DNA of 64,000 nucleotides from Ignavibacteria bacterium RIFOXYC2_FULL_35_21. GTDB lineage: Bacteria > Bacteroidota > Ignavibacteria > Kapaibacteriales > UBA2268. The position numbers were made by a program, and so were the translations under genes. Under the pieces are notes generated by a model. The model worked only from the letters and a program-made list of their open reading frames with translations, made no database searches and was not told the origin of the DNA. Shown here piece after piece: positions 5,144 to 13,939 of the stretch. Each line of letters begins with the position of its first letter. Within the stretch, counting starts at the first letter, position 1. The DNA lies in NCBI GenBank assembly GCA_001804705.1, contig MHAY01000049.1:1-64000 (forward strand), in the 5' to 3' direction.

Positions 5144-5845
5144 TCAATAAGTAAATTCGATAATATCACATTTAAGCTGTCTTGGATTGGGTTGGATATA
5201 ATAACCTTTCAAAAGTAAATTATAATATTTTCCCGGCTTGAAATTGTAATTCTCTACCTTTGTAATTTCACTTCCATTACTATAATCATTAATAACGAGT
5301 GTAAAAATACCGGTTGGTATAGGCATAAATTTAGTATATGACTTATATTTGACAAGCTGGTTGATTTGGTAACTGTCGAATGCAAAAACAACTTCAGGTG
5401 CATCCTGTGAAAGATGTACAAACCTGACATAAGCATTCGTAGGAACTGGATTTTCTATGCTGTCATTAATTAATAATCCATTTACCCTGCTCTTAGTGCC
5501 GTAAGCAAAAAAAGTATAATGAGCATCTTTGATTAATTCAAACATAGAATTAAAGTGAATTGCAGAGTCTTTAAAGTTTTGAATTCTTATACTTGTTAAT
5601 CCGGAGGCAATTTTTTTGTATTCAACAAAAGTCGAATCATAAAGTAAATTTCTGCTGATAATTTTATCAACTGAACAAATGTCAACCGAATCAATATCAG
5701 GTATTGCGTTGATAAACATCACTTTTGCAAAATCTGTCGGTTCAACAACCTTGGGTGTGACAATATCCGGGACACATTCGCAGGATACAAATAAAATAGT
5801 AAAAATTAGTAATAATAAAATTGATGTACTTGATTTTAATTTCAT
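5144..5845 (-). CDS. DUF4397-type lipoprotein
   Basis: A 233-residue exported protein. The N-terminus is a lipoprotein signal peptide ending in the lipobox LFVSC (Cys about residue 22), so it should be anchored in the envelope. Two beta-rich repeats follow, each with the DUF4397 hallmark: VMFINAIPDIDSVDIC near residue 43 and AYVRFVHLSQDAPEVVFAF near residue 135. The family is widespread in Bacteroidota surface proteins with no settled function. A strong terminator separates it from the anti-sigma gene upstream, so it probably has its own promoter. Confidence 0.75.
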   Translation of the reverse strand: MKLKSSTSILLLLIFTILFVSCECVPDIVTPKVVEPTDFAKVMFINAIPDIDSVDICSVDKIISRNLLYDSTFVEYKKIASGLTSIRIQNFKDSAIHFNSMFELIKDAHYTFFAYGTKSRVNGLLINDSIENPVPTNAYVRFVHLSQDAPEVVFAFDSYQINQLVKYKSYTKFMPIPTGIFTLVINDYSNGSEITKVENYNFKPGKYYNLLLKGYYIQPNPRQLKCDIIEFTY

Positions 5846-5856
5846 AATAATTCACT

Positions 5857-5892
5857 AAAAAAAATAAACCCACAATATATATCGTGGGTTTA
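5857..5892 (-). terminator. Intrinsic terminator after the anti-sigma gene
   Basis: On the minus strand TAAACCCAC and GTGGGTTTA pair around a 10-base loop and are followed by eight T (bases 5857-5864). It lies downstream of the anti-sigma gene stop at 5929. Confidence 0.9.
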
Positions 5893-5928: not shown

Positions 5929-7335
5929 TTAAAAATTCACACTCCCTCCGAATGTAAATCCATATTTATCTGAAAGATAAGTTTTTGGACTAACTGTATA
6001 AATCAATCCTGCTGTTTCAAGTCCTAAATTGAATCTGAATAAACTAACCGGCTGAAACATCAAACCTGCCTGTAAACGGTATATCGTACCGACAGTAGTT
6101 AATTTTCCTGATGAGGTTCCTCCAACTGTAAATTGTCCGTAAGGATATACAACATCTTCCCATAAGAATTCGGGAGCAATGAATTTACATGTAGCACCAT
6201 ACCACATCAATTGCGGACTTTGTTTCTGACTCTGACTTTGACCATAATCATCTTTAAAAGTGAAAATTTGATTAAATGATTCCCACCCAACTTCAACTCC
6301 AAAAGACCAGTATGGGTTTGTTTTATACATAGCACTAAATGCTAAATTTGTATTCCATTTATTTTCTTCTTTTTTATCAAAAGTCTGGGATAAATCTACC
6401 TTCTGTGATGGATTCAAATCCAATCTTCTAACCTGAATAGTCCAACTGGAATTATCAACTGAAACCAACGAAAATGGATTTACAAGAAAATTTATGGGAC
6501 CATTATTTCTGTAGAAATCCTGTCTTGATTGTGTTGGATTGACCAGTACATTTGAATTTGTTGACATAGAAGAATTGACTCTTCTGTTTGCTGAATTTGT
6601 CAGTTTCATATCCTGAGAAGCATCACTTAGTAATTCTTCATCTGAAAAAATACCGTGTCTTTCGTTTAAATTATAAGCAGATAAGTCTGTTCCATTTCCC
6701 ATATCAACAGTATTTGCAGAATTACCAGATTGATTCCCCGAATTGGAATTTGTTCCAAAAAGAACATTAGACCTTGGATTACGGCTTGAATGTCTAACTA
6801 CAGAGCCATTATCGGCAAAGTCTTGGCTATTATCTTCCTGGTTGCCGGCAATTGAACGGACAATTGGTATTGATGACATACCTGAAATATTATTATTATC
6901 TGAGTTTTTTACATTCGGTCCCTGTGTAATTACAGTCTTATTGCCGCTTTTAAAATTTAAAATATCCGGATTCATAACCAGCATAGTTCCGGTAGTAAGG
7001 AGCATAAGAAGAAAGATGACATTCAATGCAAAATACTTTACCCAAAACCTCTTTATGGAGGTTATTGGGGAAGTTGCAACCGTGTCGCCTGCAAGGTTCT
7101 TTAGATACTCTTCGGAGGGTATCGAAAAACCAAGCGATGAAAAAATAACATTTGTAGCTTCAAGCGGTGGAGTTATCAGCGCCATATCGCTTTGTGCAAC
7201 TACCTGAAGTTTGACCTGCTGGCTAAAATCAAACCTCAAATCCTGGTTTGTAGCTAACTCTGCAAACAGTATATCCTGCTGCATCTGGCCAAGCTCGCCA
7301 TCCAGGTAATCGTGAATCATTCTTGAGTATTCCAT
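5929..7335 (-). CDS. Anti-sigma factor with inner-membrane segment and C-terminal outer-membrane beta-barrel
   Basis: A 468-residue protein. Residues 1-97 are soluble, beginning YSRMIHDYLDGELG as in anti-sigma factors that sequester ECF sigma factors. Residues about 98-120 form a transmembrane helix (FWVKYFALNVIFLLMLLTTG). Residues 121-296 are a low-complexity Asn/Ser-rich linker. Residues about 297-468 consist of alternating amphipathic strands with aromatic girdles (SFGVEVGWESF, YPYGQFTVGG, FRFNLGLETAGLIY) and end in GFTFGGSVNF, a typical outer-membrane barrel terminus with final Phe. This layout matches the dual membrane-spanning anti-sigma (Dma) class reported in Bacteroides. It lies 13 bases after the sigma gene. 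Partner and topology are inferred. Confidence 0.75.
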   Translation of the reverse strand: MEYSRMIHDYLDGELGQMQQDILFAELATNQDLRFDFSQQVKLQVVAQSDMALITPPLEATNVIFSSLGFSIPSEEYLKNLAGDTVATSPITSIKRFWVKYFALNVIFLLMLLTTGTMLVMNPDILNFKSGNKTVITQGPNVKNSDNNNISGMSSIPIVRSIAGNQEDNSQDFADNGSVVRHSSRNPRSNVLFGTNSNSGNQSGNSANTVDMGNGTDLSAYNLNERHGIFSDEELLSDASQDMKLTNSANRRVNSSMSTNSNVLVNPTQSRQDFYRNNGPINFLVNPFSLVSVDNSSWTIQVRRLDLNPSQKVDLSQTFDKKEENKWNTNLAFSAMYKTNPYWSFGVEVGWESFNQIFTFKDDYGQSQSQKQSPQLMWYGATCKFIAPEFLWEDVVYPYGQFTVGGTSSGKLTTVGTIYRLQAGLMFQPVSLFRFNLGLETAGLIYTVSPKTYLSDKYGFTFGGSVNF

Positions 7336-7348
7336 TGTAATTCTGCTA

Positions 7349-7912
7349 TTAATTATTAGACATTTCTTTCAAATATGGTGACAGTATTTCTTTTATTTGC
7401 TCTTTGGCTCTCCATACACGGTTCTTGATTGCAGAAACACTGATTCCGCAAATCTTGGAAATCTCCTTGTAGGATAAACCCTGATACTGTCTTAAAACGA
7501 ACGCTTCTCTATATTCAAAATCTAAAAGTTCAAGAGCCATCGAAATCAGCTCCAGAAGCTCTTTTTTCTCATAATCGGTTTCAACTGAAGAAACCTGATA
7601 ATCATCAATATTATAATTAGTTCTTTTATCTCTTTTATGGTTTAAGCATAAATTTCGTGCAATTGTCAAAAGCAACCCGGGAATATTATCAACAACGTCA
7701 AGTGATTGAGCATTGTTATAAAATTTCAGGTAAGTCTCCTGAAAAATATCCTGTGCATCATCATGATTGCCCATAACACGCAAACAATAAGCAAAAACCC
7801 TTTGGGCATACCTTGAATACAGTTCAGAAAAAGCTGCCTCAGCCATTGGCTTCTTATCCCGCAGGGCTTTGTAAAGCTCCATATCGCTGTATTTACCGAA
7901 GGTTCTTCCCAT
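7349..7912 (-). CDS. ECF-type RNA polymerase sigma factor
   Basis: A 187-residue sigma-70-family factor. Region 2 covers about residues 25-95 (RYAQRVFAYCLRV, DAQDIFQETYLKFY), and region 4 covers about 120-180 with a helix-turn-helix (FVLRQYQGLSYKEISKICG, SAIKNRVWRAKEQI). Regions 1 and 3 are absent, as in ECF factors. The next gene encodes a membrane anti-sigma factor, so activity is probably controlled by release from it after an envelope signal. A cognate target promoter could not be identified by eye. Confidence 0.93.
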   Translation of the reverse strand: MGRTFGKYSDMELYKALRDKKPMAEAAFSELYSRYAQRVFAYCLRVMGNHDDAQDIFQETYLKFYNNAQSLDVVDNIPGLLLTIARNLCLNHKRDKRTNYNIDDYQVSSVETDYEKKELLELISMALELLDFEYREAFVLRQYQGLSYKEISKICGISVSAIKNRVWRAKEQIKEILSPYLKEMSNN

Positions 7913-7940: not shown

Positions 7941-9053
7941 TTAAGCTTTTATTCTCATTTTATATCCCCTCAGAACGCCATTGCTAAGTACCATTTTCCT
8001 TTTCGGTTGAAAATAATTTACAATCTTGAGTGTTCCTCCAAATCTACCTGTATCATCCCGATAATACTTAGTAAAAAATATCCAGTTACCATCATTTGTC
8101 CACAGGGGATAGAGATTAAATTCAATGGTTGTATCTGTTTCTTCAGTCATATTTCTATACTTTCCGTCTTCTATTGTTCTGACCCATATATTCCCATCTC
8201 TTGATGCAAATACAACTTTTGTTTTGTCTGGTGATAAAGACGGCATTTTTGCTCCGATACCTGATATTTTTAATTCATTATCAGAATTACCATTGATTTC
8301 ATCTATAATAATAATATCTGATGATGAACCTGTGTCTTTTACAGCATAAGTTAAAAACCTGCTGTCATCTGACCAATCTATAGTTGCATTACCAATCATA
8401 GGAAAAAGCAATTGTTCAAAACTTCTTTCGTAAATGATAATGTTTGGGTCATCGGTTCTGACAACTTTCATCCTAATTGGGCCAAACAAACCATCTGTTT
8501 CATAAAAAGCAAGGAATCTACCATCAGGTGAAAAAGAAGGTTCGGTTCCCTCATAAAATTCAAATGTTGCTTCCCGGGCAAAACTCATATTTGCAATTAT
8601 TATGAGTTGGCCGCTTCCGACATAAATCGAAACATATTTTCCATCAGGTGAAATAACCGGCATTTCAATCAAGTCATACTGATTAGATATTGTAGTATCT
8701 ATAAATAGACTATCGCTATTGGTCTTGACTGTACAAATTACAGTATCTTCACCAATTATTTCTCTCAGGAAAACAATCATTTTGTTTCTTGAAGGACCGC
8801 TGTACAGCACACCGTCTTTAATAATTTCTCTGAGCTTACTTCCATCGGGTGATACCGCATAAATACCGGGTATTGTACCATTCAACGAAACTGCTGAAAA
8901 AAATATGTCGTTTGCATCCTTATCCTTGCTCTCACCAAGGTCACAGACATCACAACCATAAAATCCTGCTATGACAAAGAACGCTGCAAATAGTATAAAT
9001 TTTTTTCGAATAAAGCTTACCTTATTTACAAATTTTAAAACTTTTTCAAACAT
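7941..9053 (-). CDS. PD40/TolB-like beta-propeller lipoprotein
   Basis: A 370-residue exported lipoprotein: basic N-terminus, hydrophobic core and lipobox IAGFYGC, then Cys-Asp-Val-Cys. The mature part has repeated PD40 blades with SPDG-type loops (YAVSPDGSKLREI, PVISPDGKYVSIYV, EPSFSPDGRFLAFY, SLSPDKTKVVFAS), giving a six- or seven-bladed TolB-like propeller. Ligand unknown. The longest frame starts with TTG at 9065; the ATG at 9053 is preferred. It lies 28 bases upstream of the sigma gene on the same strand and might belong to the same transcript, in which case it could be a sensor or an early target. Confidence 0.8.
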   Translation of the reverse strand: MFEKVLKFVNKVSFIRKKFILFAAFFVIAGFYGCDVCDLGESKDKDANDIFFSAVSLNGTIPGIYAVSPDGSKLREIIKDGVLYSGPSRNKMIVFLREIIGEDTVICTVKTNSDSLFIDTTISNQYDLIEMPVISPDGKYVSIYVGSGQLIIIANMSFAREATFEFYEGTEPSFSPDGRFLAFYETDGLFGPIRMKVVRTDDPNIIIYERSFEQLLFPMIGNATIDWSDDSRFLTYAVKDTGSSSDIIIIDEINGNSDNELKISGIGAKMPSLSPDKTKVVFASRDGNIWVRTIEDGKYRNMTEETDTTIEFNLYPLWTNDGNWIFFTKYYRDDTGRFGGTLKIVNYFQPKRKMVLSNGVLRGYKMRIKA

Positions 9054-9119
9054 TTTACACTTCAACTATATATAATGACACATAAAAGGCAAAAAGGTCT
9101 CAAACTTTTTTCATTTTTT

Positions 9120-10876: not shown

Positions 10877-13800
10877 ATGAAAAAAAAATACTTCCTAAAA
10901 AGTGCATTCATTGCATTAATATTCTTAATAGCATCAATTTCATCTTATGCAACTGACCTCAAGGTTCAGTCAATAATTCAACCAAAGGGTATAGCACAGT
11001 TGTTATTTCAGTACCAAATAATATTTATTATAGCAAATATTAACAGACTACCTGCGTTGAATTATTATAACCAGGTTACTATTACTAAGAAAAACGACCC
11101 CACTTATCAATGGAGTACAACGGTTGAAGGCATACCAATAGATTCATTTACTACTCAACAGCATTCTTCAGCCGAATCATGGACTCCTGTGAATCCTGGG
11201 GAATATACTATCAAAGTTCAAGTTTTTTTTGATGATGACATAGACCATTCAAATGACACAATATCATCCAGCATTACAGTTGAAGAGCCGGGGGAACCTT
11301 TCCTTAAATTTCCTTTTCAGTTAGGCCAGGTACAATACTATCATCCAAGACCTGTTGACAACTCAAACACAGGCCTTATGTCTGTAACCTACTCAAATCT
11401 AGATACAACAACGTATGTAAACGTTATGGGTAGAGTTGACTCTTCGAATCCATATAAATGGATTGTACAAAATGCTCCTTTATTTCCTTTTCATGACCCA
11501 TCAACATCAACATTTTTCTTTGATTTTGATGATTTGAATGTTGCTCCTGATACAAGAGTAACAACAATGGATATAAGCATAACATGGACTGACAAAATTT
11601 TATCAAGCCCGTTTGAAGTTACAAGGGATACAAGCATTGCTGTTAATCAAGTGTTATATGATGTAGCCACAACAAATGAAGTAGTTGATTCAATATTTAA
11701 CGTTCCGAGTTTTACACCAACAATTATTTGGGATACAACTAAGCCTACTACTTTTAATTACCGGGGATGTACAGTACCTAACATAGATTTAAATTCAACT
11801 TTGTACAATCCAACAACAGTTCCGGGATATGCCGGCGATAAAAATGCCTGTGGACCGGCTGCTGCGGGTAATAGTCTTGAGTGGCTCGAAAAAACCCATC
11901 CAAAGACACCATTGACAGGCACAACACACCGTGAAAAAATGGTTGAGTTGAGCAAAATGATGGATAGGGCTAATGAAGATGGGGTTACAACACAACAACT
12001 TGTCAAAGGCAAGCTCGCTTTCATTGATAAATACCGGCTGCCTATAAGAGTTAAGTTCCAGAGTGTTTTTGTCGGTGATTCAACTATCAAATCCCCGGGA
12101 AACAATTCGAGTAATGAAGCAAAAAATCATAATAGTGGAAATAAAACTCCTCCAAAATGGGATTGGTTGAAACAAGAATTTGAGCATGGCGAGGATGTTG
12201 AAATCCTTTTTGGTTGGTATGATTCAACGGGCAACCGGAATGGAGGACATTGGATTACTGTAACGGGCATCAGTGAAATTGGAACTGCAAAAGGAATATA
12301 TTTCAAAGATGACTGGGAGCAGGGAGCAGCCGGAGGATTAAGGCATCCATACTCCAACTGGATTGAAGGCGATAATGGTTGGTCAAGAATTAAAGGTTTG
12401 GATGAAGGTAACAGCATTTGCTGGGTTGAGAGCGTTGTTTCGGAAAGCTATGACTCAACTGTTCATCAGGATGCAGAACCATTAGGAATGAATGAATGCA
12501 GATTCTTTGAAATGATGTTTGGATTGGATGAAAAGAAAGGCGAAGTCGAAGTTGAAGTTACTCCTGCAGATGAGCCAAGATATTTGAATATGTGGGCAAC
12601 CAAGACCGATTCCAAAGAATTCAAATGGATAGGCTGGAATATTTTCCTTGCTCCATTCAGTGTATCGCAAAAATACACATTCTTCTATGATTTCGAAGAT
12701 ATAGGCTATCAAATTAGCGAACCGCATGATTCAATAAGATTTGCCATGACTGTTACCGATACACCAATCACTAAGAAGGATACTATTAAACATTATGTTG
12801 ATTACAAACTCGGAACGACTAACATTGTAATCGGCAATGGTAGTGCAGACGAGGATTTAATTACATTTCCTCCAATTACACCTTCGATTCCCGGTTTTGA
12901 AGGTTGGAACCTGAAAACATGGGTCTATCGCGGTTGCGAAATGCCGAATATTGATTTGGATTCAACAAGAAATAATCCCGGTACTTTAGCAGGATATGCC
13001 GGCGACAAGAATGCTTGTGGACCCGCTGCCGCTGCTAATTCTTTGGAGTGGCTCGAACAAACACATAACAAAATTGACTCAACAAGCACTCACAGGGACA
13101 AGCTTAAGGAGTTGAGCAGTTTAATGAACAGAGCAAACAATGCAGGCGTAATGCGTGCAGATTTTATCAAAGCTAAGCTTTCATTTATAGATAAATACAA
13201 ATTACCTATTCATGTTAAATTCCAGGGATTCATGTTCGATACAAACGACATTAATTCACCCAATCCGGCATTTGGGCATAAAGCAGAAAATAAGAACGAT
13301 TCAAACAGAATGCCTTCTCAGTGGGACTGGCTTGTTCAGGAGATGCAGAAGGGTGAAGATGTCGAACTCGAGTTTGGTTATTATGATAATACAGGGACAA
13401 GAAAAGGCGGACACTGGATTACAGTAACAGGCGTCAGCGATGTAACGACAGCGAAGGGTATATACTTTAAAGATGATTTGAATCAGAGAGATTCAAGCGG
13501 CTTAAGAAATCCTTATGTTAACCTTAAAGATACTCTTGGTTACACATACCTACAACAATTATCCACAGCCAGTGGATACACATGCTGGATTGAAACTTTA
13601 GTTTCCGAAAGCTATGATTCGACGATTACCTTTACGGGTGTAGAAGAACAACAATTGAAAGAAGAATATAAATTAAAAATCATACCTAATCCAAGTCCGG
13701 CAGGTAAGAATATTGATATAAGTTTAATTTTGCCATTAACGTCCATAGTTGAAGCCGAAATTTTTGACTTGAGAGGTAATTTGGTTTCAACCCTCTTTAC

Positions 13801-13939
13801 CGGTGTTATTCAGCAGGGACAGCAGAAGTTCAATTGGGAGAGTAAAAATTTGCAGGGGCAGAATGTTTCTGCAGGTACTTATGTTCTGTCAATAAAAATC
13901 GACGGTATATTGCTGAGTGAAAAAATTATTATCGAATAA
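10877..13939 (+). CDS. Secreted protein with two C39-like cysteine peptidase domains and a T9SS-type C-terminus
   Basis: A 1020-residue exported protein with a signal peptide (residues 1-26). After Ig-like segments come two homologous domains. Each has a KNACGPAAA motif (Cys325 and Cys714) followed by SLEWLE, and a GGHWITVTG motif (His458 and His846), the Cys/His arrangement of C39-like peptidases (Peptidase_C39_2). Each is preceded by YRGC.(V/M)PNIDL and followed by KGIYFKDD. The last 80 residues (PNPSPAGKNIDISL ... SAGTYVLSIKIDG) are a FlgD-like/T9SS type A sorting domain. It is thus probably carried through the outer membrane. Substrate unknown; whether both domains are active cannot be judged from sequence. 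Confidence 0.8.
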   Translation: MKKKYFLKSAFIALIFLIASISSYATDLKVQSIIQPKGIAQLLFQYQIIFIIANINRLPALNYYNQVTITKKNDPTYQWSTTVEGIPIDSFTTQQHSSAESWTPVNPGEYTIKVQVFFDDDIDHSNDTISSSITVEEPGEPFLKFPFQLGQVQYYHPRPVDNSNTGLMSVTYSNLDTTTYVNVMGRVDSSNPYKWIVQNAPLFPFHDPSTSTFFFDFDDLNVAPDTRVTTMDISITWTDKILSSPFEVTRDTSIAVNQVLYDVATTNEVVDSIFNVPSFTPTIIWDTTKPTTFNYRGCTVPNIDLNSTLYNPTTVPGYAGDKNACGPAAAGNSLEWLEKTHPKTPLTGTTHREKMVELSKMMDRANEDGVTTQQLVKGKLAFIDKYRLPIRVKFQSVFVGDSTIKSPGNNSSNEAKNHNSGNKTPPKWDWLKQEFEHGEDVEILFGWYDSTGNRNGGHWITVTGISEIGTAKGIYFKDDWEQGAAGGLRHPYSNWIEGDNGWSRIKGLDEGNSICWVESVVSESYDSTVHQDAEPLGMNECRFFEMMFGLDEKKGEVEVEVTPADEPRYLNMWATKTDSKEFKWIGWNIFLAPFSVSQKYTFFYDFEDIGYQISEPHDSIRFAMTVTDTPITKKDTIKHYVDYKLGTTNIVIGNGSADEDLITFPPITPSIPGFEGWNLKTWVYRGCEMPNIDLDSTRNNPGTLAGYAGDKNACGPAAAANSLEWLEQTHNKIDSTSTHRDKLKELSSLMNRANNAGVMRADFIKAKLSFIDKYKLPIHVKFQGFMFDTNDINSPNPAFGHKAENKNDSNRMPSQWDWLVQEMQKGEDVELEFGYYDNTGTRKGGHWITVTGVSDVTTAKGIYFKDDLNQRDSSGLRNPYVNLKDTLGYTYLQQLSTASGYTCWIETLVSESYDSTITFTGVEEQQLKEEYKLKIIPNPSPAGKNIDISLILPLTSIVEAEIFDLRGNLVSTLFTGVIQQGQQKFNWESKNLQGQNVSAGTYVLSIKIDGILLSEKIIIE

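Follow-up and report, generated by a model that had tools for sequence, protein, structure and literature searches.

Is the ECF sigma factor of this locus held at the inner membrane by a protein that is also anchored in the outer membrane, and which genes would such a pair control? The window, by which we mean the whole stretch of 64,000 nucleotides analysed here, comes from a Kapabacteria MAG, that is, from Bacteroidota outside class Bacteroidia. A sequence-only reading had assigned the gene at 5929-7335(-) to the dual membrane-spanning anti-sigma (Dma) class known from Bacteroides. The anatomy of the protein, its operon, its pairing and co-fold with the sigma factor, the promoter and the regulon were computed.

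A Dma-like gene and its ECF sigma factor

The gene coordinates of the sequence-only reading are correct. The 468-aa ORF, which ends in ...GGSVNF, is preceded on the same strand, with a gap of 13 nt, by the 187-aa sigma gene at 7349-7912(-), which matches the Pfam families Sigma70_r2 (E 4e-14) and Sigma70_r4_2 (E 5e-16). The DUF4397 gene at 5144-5845(-) and the promoter at 9073-9103(-) are additions to that reading. The features and their basis are as follows.

5929..7335 (-): Dma-like dual-membrane anti-sigma gene, 468 aa (ORF; homologues in 52/60 genomes; sigma upstream in 56/56)
7048..7335 (-): cytosolic anti-sigma domain, residues 1-96, helical (conservation; AF2; co-fold of a relative)
6973..7047 (-): inner-membrane helix, residues 97-121 (hydropathy; AF2 helix; N-terminally flanking basic residues)
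6457..6972 (-): periplasmic tether, residues 122-293, disordered and rich in Asn/Ser (pLDDT ~30; family linker lengths)
5932..6456 (-): predicted 8-stranded outer-membrane beta-barrel, residues 294-468, final Phe (AF2; Foldseek; homologue C-termini; sub-threshold PF13505)
7349..7912 (-): cognate ECF sigma factor, 187 aa (Pfam; ranks of Dma-linked sigmas)
7941..9065 (-): PD40 beta-propeller lipoprotein, lipobox FYGC (PF07676; precedes sigma in 12/13 named loci)
5144..5845 (-): DUF4397 lipoprotein, lipobox FVSC then ECVPDIVTPK (PF14344, E 4e-22; lipoprotein as third gene in relatives)
9073..9103 (-): predicted ECF promoter TTGAGACCTTTTTGCCTTTTATGTGTCATTA, -35 GAGACC, -10 GTGTC (conservation; genome site counts)
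5865..5892 (-): terminator-like hairpin between the Dma-like and DUF4397 genes (conserved in 4 species)

A Pfam scan of the 468-aa protein found no anti-sigma domain, and its match to PF13505 (OMP_b-brl) at residues 319-429 is sub-threshold (E 7e-5); the identification was therefore drawn from relatives and structure. Searching the sequences of solved structures with the whole protein brought up chance matches only. Hydropathy places a single transmembrane (TM) segment at residues 97-115, with basic residues flanking the helix on its N-terminal side. In the AlphaFold2 model, built from an alignment of only 13 sequences, helices cover residues 2-68, the TM helix spans residues 102-121, 176 residues (118-293) are disordered with pLDDT ~30, and strands run over residues 298-467 with pLDDT 80-92. 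The four parts named by the sequence-only reading, a cytosolic anti-sigma-like domain, one inner-membrane helix, a 175-residue linker and a C-terminal barrel ending in Phe, are thus all recovered. When the model was compared with the PDB by Foldseek, the C-terminal domain matched the closed 8-stranded outer-membrane proteins NspA (TM-score 0.68), OmpA (0.60) and OprF (0.56) and also a designed transmembrane barrel (0.68); it is predicted to be an outer-membrane barrel and not a soluble sandwich.

Across 29 aligned homologues, the N-domain and the C-terminus are conserved, the linker varies, and there is one TM segment. The N-domain ('YSRMIHDYLDGEL...LGFSIP', without a zinc motif) is the best conserved part of the family (mean majority 0.50). 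Among 56 homologues the linker measures 112-222 residues (median 151, 10-90% range 121-179) and contains 13% S and 12% N. An extended chain covers ~0.35 nm per residue, and at this value even the shortest linker of the family exceeds the normal periplasm in length.

Homologues and pairing with the sigma factor

Whole-genome searches found homologues, full-length or partial, in 52 of the 60 related genomes, and the window's own genome carries 7 copies of the gene. Since, in addition, a sigma gene lies directly upstream in 56/56 non-redundant homologues (median gap 16 nt), the ORF is not a product of chance. The named relatives are Ignavibacteria, Bacteroidetes and Candidatus Kapaibacterium MAGs; because NCBI taxonomy now places Kapaibacterium in Bacteroidota, class Eximiradiia, the homologues fall inside the phylum but outside Bacteroidia. 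When 395 genomes of the phylum were scanned, the full-length architecture turned up across the whole order and in a small number of genomes from other orders of the class, while elsewhere it was mostly the N-domain alone that matched, in short single-TM anti-sigmas. The protein belongs to a widespread, previously unassigned Kapabacteria family, and the proposal that the architecture extends beyond gut Bacteroidales is borne out in Kapabacteria.

Distant full-length homologues, and those with the N-domain only, also directly follow a sigma gene. Distances among the sigmas follow those of the N-domain (Mantel r 0.65, 0/2000 permutations) more closely than those of the barrel (r 0.46). The 7 Dma-linked sigmas of the own genome occupy ranks 1-7 among its 16 ECF matches. 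Relatives of the sigma were not found in viral contigs.

As the two genes of the window are out of frame with each other, co-folding was carried out on one in-frame relative, L043, whose sigma and N-domain were fused by reading the sigma stop codon as Gln, with 25 sequences in the alignment. The model has a pTM of 0.72, and the N-domain helices have pLDDT 75-89. By Foldseek (TMt), the L043 sigma resembles sigmas bound to their anti-sigmas (SigW/RsiW, 0.84-0.86; CnrH/CnrY, 0.78; RpoE/NepR, 0.78), whereas RNAP-bound ECFs score only 0.33-0.41. In this single fused-chain model the L043 sigma is predicted to fold with the N-domain in the anti-sigma-bound, not the RNAP-bound, arrangement. The association of N-domain and sigma expected by the sequence-only reading is predicted in a relative.

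A four-gene cassette with two lipoproteins

The PD40 gene matches PF07676 (E 8e-13); it probably starts at the ATG at 9053 rather than at the TTG at 9065. In 12 of the 13 named Kapabacteria loci the PD40, sigma and Dma-like genes occur together, with PD40 preceding sigma. This order and the conserved promoter ahead of PD40 strengthen the earlier suggestion of the PD40 lipoprotein as an extra component. Most of the 13 named loci also have a DUF4397 relative. More broadly, of the 55 loci that could be evaluated, about 39 have a lipoprotein gene adjoining the Dma-like gene (a pattern picked out 27, and inspection by eye another 12), with 16 detectable as DUF4397 relatives, and many of these third-gene lipoproteins begin with C-x-x-[VP]-x-D-[IVL]-[ND]-[TD]-P-[KR]. 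The cassette is conserved down to 25% identity. The conserved unit, new here, is PD40 lipoprotein, sigma, Dma-like protein and DUF4397-type lipoprotein.

The terminator-like hairpin at 5892-5865 is conserved in 4 species. In other genera the Dma-like and DUF4397 genes overlap or abut and leave no room for a hairpin; because the hairpin of the window stands between these genes, its DUF4397 lipoprotein may be expressed separately. Elsewhere in Bacteroidota, the neighbourhoods of DUF4397 loci are mostly unrelated, but 5 of 20, all in Bacteroidia (L101, L103, L106, L107 and L115), place the lipoprotein gene beside an ECF sigma and a Dma-type gene. The DUF4397 link is thus common to both Dma types.

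Comparison with the Bacteroides Dma proteins

Published descriptions treat the Dma proteins as one family confined to Bacteroidota; they are known through studies of how gut Bacteroides form vesicles. Dma2 is described as consisting of an N-terminal sigma-binding domain, a TM segment, a disordered tether and a barrel, and its operon includes das2 and BT_1557 (DUF4943) (PMC13088901). Using DUF4943 and synteny, we located true dma2 operons at two loci, L153 and L154, in the order sigma, Dma2 (356 and 351 aa), DUF4943 and a second secreted protein, which by synteny is DUF4858.

The window family resembles these systems in the order of its parts, the neighbouring ECF sigma, the secreted proteins encoded downstream and the apparent self-regulation of the locus. 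It differs in its N-domain, which is longer (~96 residues) and carries another motif than the ~45-50 residues of Dma2 and of the Bacteroidia proteins beside DUF4397; in its sigma, which belongs to another group; in its lipoproteins, PD40 and DUF4397 in place of DUF4943/DUF4858; and in its occurrence in Kapabacteria with 7 copies in one genome and a predicted regulon of type IX secretion (T9SS) cargo.

It is rather unlikely, in our judgement, that the two families are one by descent and that the window protein is a true homologue of Bacteroides Dma diverged beyond recognition. Common descent would account for the identical four-part layout (PMC13088901), for the small OMP_b-brl-class barrels in both families and for the DUF4397 lipoproteins shared with the five Bacteroidia loci, and a joint clade of the two Dma-linked sigma groups is compatible with the AU test (p 0.44). 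Against it, hhalign gives a probability of 0.8% between the window family and the Bacteroidia Dma-type proteins, the N-domains are unlike in length and motif, and the sigma tree sets the Das-type sigmas (support 100/99) apart from the Kapabacteria group (89/80). The profile of the Bacteroidia Dma-type proteins has 0 matches in Kapabacteria and recognizes one of the two Dma2 proteins (E 6.5e-5); the window-family profile matches neither Dma2 protein of L153/L154. As far as sequence comparison reaches, the window family shares the Dma layout, while membership by descent is not demonstrable. The original class assignment stands for the four-part layout, as predicted by AF2 and Foldseek, while the hhalign value and the separate sigma groups do not support family membership.

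The promoter and its predicted regulon

An ECF-type promoter, TTGAGACSTTTT-N5-TTTATGTGTCATTA, precedes the cassette upstream of PD40. The block hardly varies among 4 species, and other genera have it ahead of the cassette as well. Allowing up to 3 mismatches and with the reversed pattern as control, TTGAGACCTTTT-N5-TTTATGTGTCATTA has 25 sites in the own genome versus 0 for the control; sites are present in 17 of the 60 relatives, and control matches number 0 in all 60. A sigma-70 promoter scan found 28 sites, with 27 expected. Variants with GAGACC or GAGACG (G for C) cluster by genome, and the cassette's own site varies with them.

Among the first genes behind these sites beyond the cassette, at least 12 of the 19 evaluable ones encode a TIGR04183 T9SS sorting domain; the count rises to 15/19 with a local profile that was partly trained on nine of them. 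At least 150 of these domains occur in the own genome. With as many as 291 domain-bearing genes among 3000, both numbers being assumed, the enrichment would still have P < 2e-8 (hypergeometric). The SprA translocon is present in the genome. In two other genera, only 4 of 11 (G018) and 4 of 7 (G007) first genes have a detectable sorting domain; of the rest, most encode a signal peptide, and a further sigma gene of the Dma-linked group is among them.

From position and conservation, the promoter is predicted to belong to the Dma-linked sigma, with some sites open to use by a paralogous sigma. We regard it as improbable that it serves a different sigma, housekeeping or another ECF, which would remove the T9SS cargo set from the regulon of this system. 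The assignment comes from position and conservation only, and a paralogous locus (C13) has a related -10 element upstream, TATGTGTTAATATAG. The near-invariant block, however, directly precedes the cassette in several genera, its -35 and -10 are ECF-like at a fixed spacing with only ~25 sites, and the GAGACC/GAGACG choice varies by genome along with the cassette's own site.

Relation to other anti-sigma systems

It is very improbable that the protein is an ordinary single-pass anti-sigma ending in a beta domain that stays in the periplasm and out of the outer membrane: short N-domain and TM versions without a barrel do adjoin sigma genes (L085, L088) and outer-membrane insertion is a prediction, but the strands are confidently modelled (pLDDT 80-92), the best structural matches are closed outer-membrane proteins, the C-terminal residue is F or Y in 41 of 56 homologues, and the barrel is conserved across the order of the family.

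With class-I single-pass anti-sigmas (RsiW/RseA-like ASD) the protein shares a helical N-domain, a single TM segment and a SigW/RsiW-like bound sigma; it differs from them in having neither a zinc motif nor a Pfam anti-sigma match and in adding the tether and barrel. In a test for zinc-binding anti-sigmas (ZAS), the N-domain showed no cysteine motif and no zf-HC2 match at E<=1; among the homologues only L074 gives a zf-HC2 match, sub-threshold at E 0.053.

FecR/FpvR-type surface signalling uses two proteins, a TonB-dependent receptor and a separate anti-sigma. The path from outer-membrane barrel through inner-membrane anti-sigma to ECF sigma is alike, but here it runs through one chain. A FecR-type anti-sigma was ruled out, there being no FecR match and no adjacent TonB-dependent receptor; the neighbouring ORFs scanned comprise DUF4397, sigma, PD40 and a LON-domain protein, and no receptor.

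In Porphyromonas gingivalis, ECF sigma control is tied to the T9SS through PorXY-SigP (PMC4800418, PMC7712824). Both systems link an ECF sigma to T9SS genes and to cell-surface signalling. In PorXY-SigP, however, the sigma is activated by a two-component system and acts on genes of the T9SS machine, whereas here a membrane-spanning anti-sigma would control mainly cargo genes.

A model for trans-envelope control

Our best reading is that of a dual-membrane anti-sigma system, independently assembled or deeply diverged, that couples the state of the outer membrane to the expression of T9SS cargo. We think it quite probable that the locus encodes a sigma/anti-sigma switch in which the anti-sigma physically joins cytosol and outer membrane and controls mostly T9SS-exported proteins. 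The ECF sigma would be kept at the inner membrane by binding to residues 1-96; one helix would cross that membrane, and ~170 disordered residues would span the periplasm to the 8-stranded barrel. We infer that in vivo the barrel inserts into the outer membrane and anchors the protein there; the state of this membrane would be read by the barrel itself or by a partner. The PD40 and DUF4397 lipoproteins, encoded at the same locus, probably act as partners in input or feedback. Candidate signals are an unassembled barrel, a bound ligand or lipoprotein, or secretion load. On such a signal the N-domain would release the sigma, most likely by proteolysis in the tether and the membrane, and the freed sigma would transcribe, from GAGACS...GTGTC promoters, its own operon and a further ~20 transcription units, most of which are predicted to encode T9SS-exported proteins.

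We suggest more tentatively that unrelated anti-sigma domains were joined independently to a tether and barrel in Bacteroidia and in Kapabacteria, by convergence, and that the Kapabacteria version is an outer-membrane sensor that adjusts the production of T9SS cargo, with the DUF4397/PD40 lipoproteins as partners in the periplasm or at the surface. If so, single-chain trans-envelope anti-sigma factors would be a convergent solution. The analysis shows the Dma layout in a large second set of proteins, in uncultured Kapabacteria. Their sigma-binding domain is of another kind, one genome has seven copies, the lipoprotein partners are conserved, and the promoter can be read. Through the predicted regulon the trans-envelope architecture is connected with type IX secretion, which suggests a purpose for such sensors. 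DUF4397 and PD40 are testable partners, and the promoter sequence could be used for a reporter.

Further observations

The tether is unconserved apart from the motif SSIPIVRS (residues 154-161, 6853-6876(-)), ~40 residues past the TM segment; [IVLF]P[VIL][VI]SS is present in the linkers of most of the own family. It is possibly a protease or partner site; as a cleavage site it is weakened, since the motif fades outside the own family.

At L083:977-2446(+) and L084:1435-2811(-), a sigma of another group is followed by a TM protein that has a different short N-domain and keeps the homologous barrel. The own-genome contig C17 (L167:2037-3465) was assigned to this variant by its sigma only. At L085:1002-2707(-), a sigma is followed by a short single-TM anti-sigma with the same N-domain and then by a separate TonB_C-domain lipoprotein, possibly a split-gene counterpart of the fused anti-sigma.

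Elsewhere in the window, 10877-13939(+) encodes a 1020-aa protein of two repeated halves with a T9SS sorting tail; each half contains NACGPAAA..SLEWLE and GGHWITVTG and is cysteine-peptidase-like. At another locus of the own genome (L185, G000:C34:17011-17502), four promoter-like sites ~153 nt apart precede one large secreted-protein gene.
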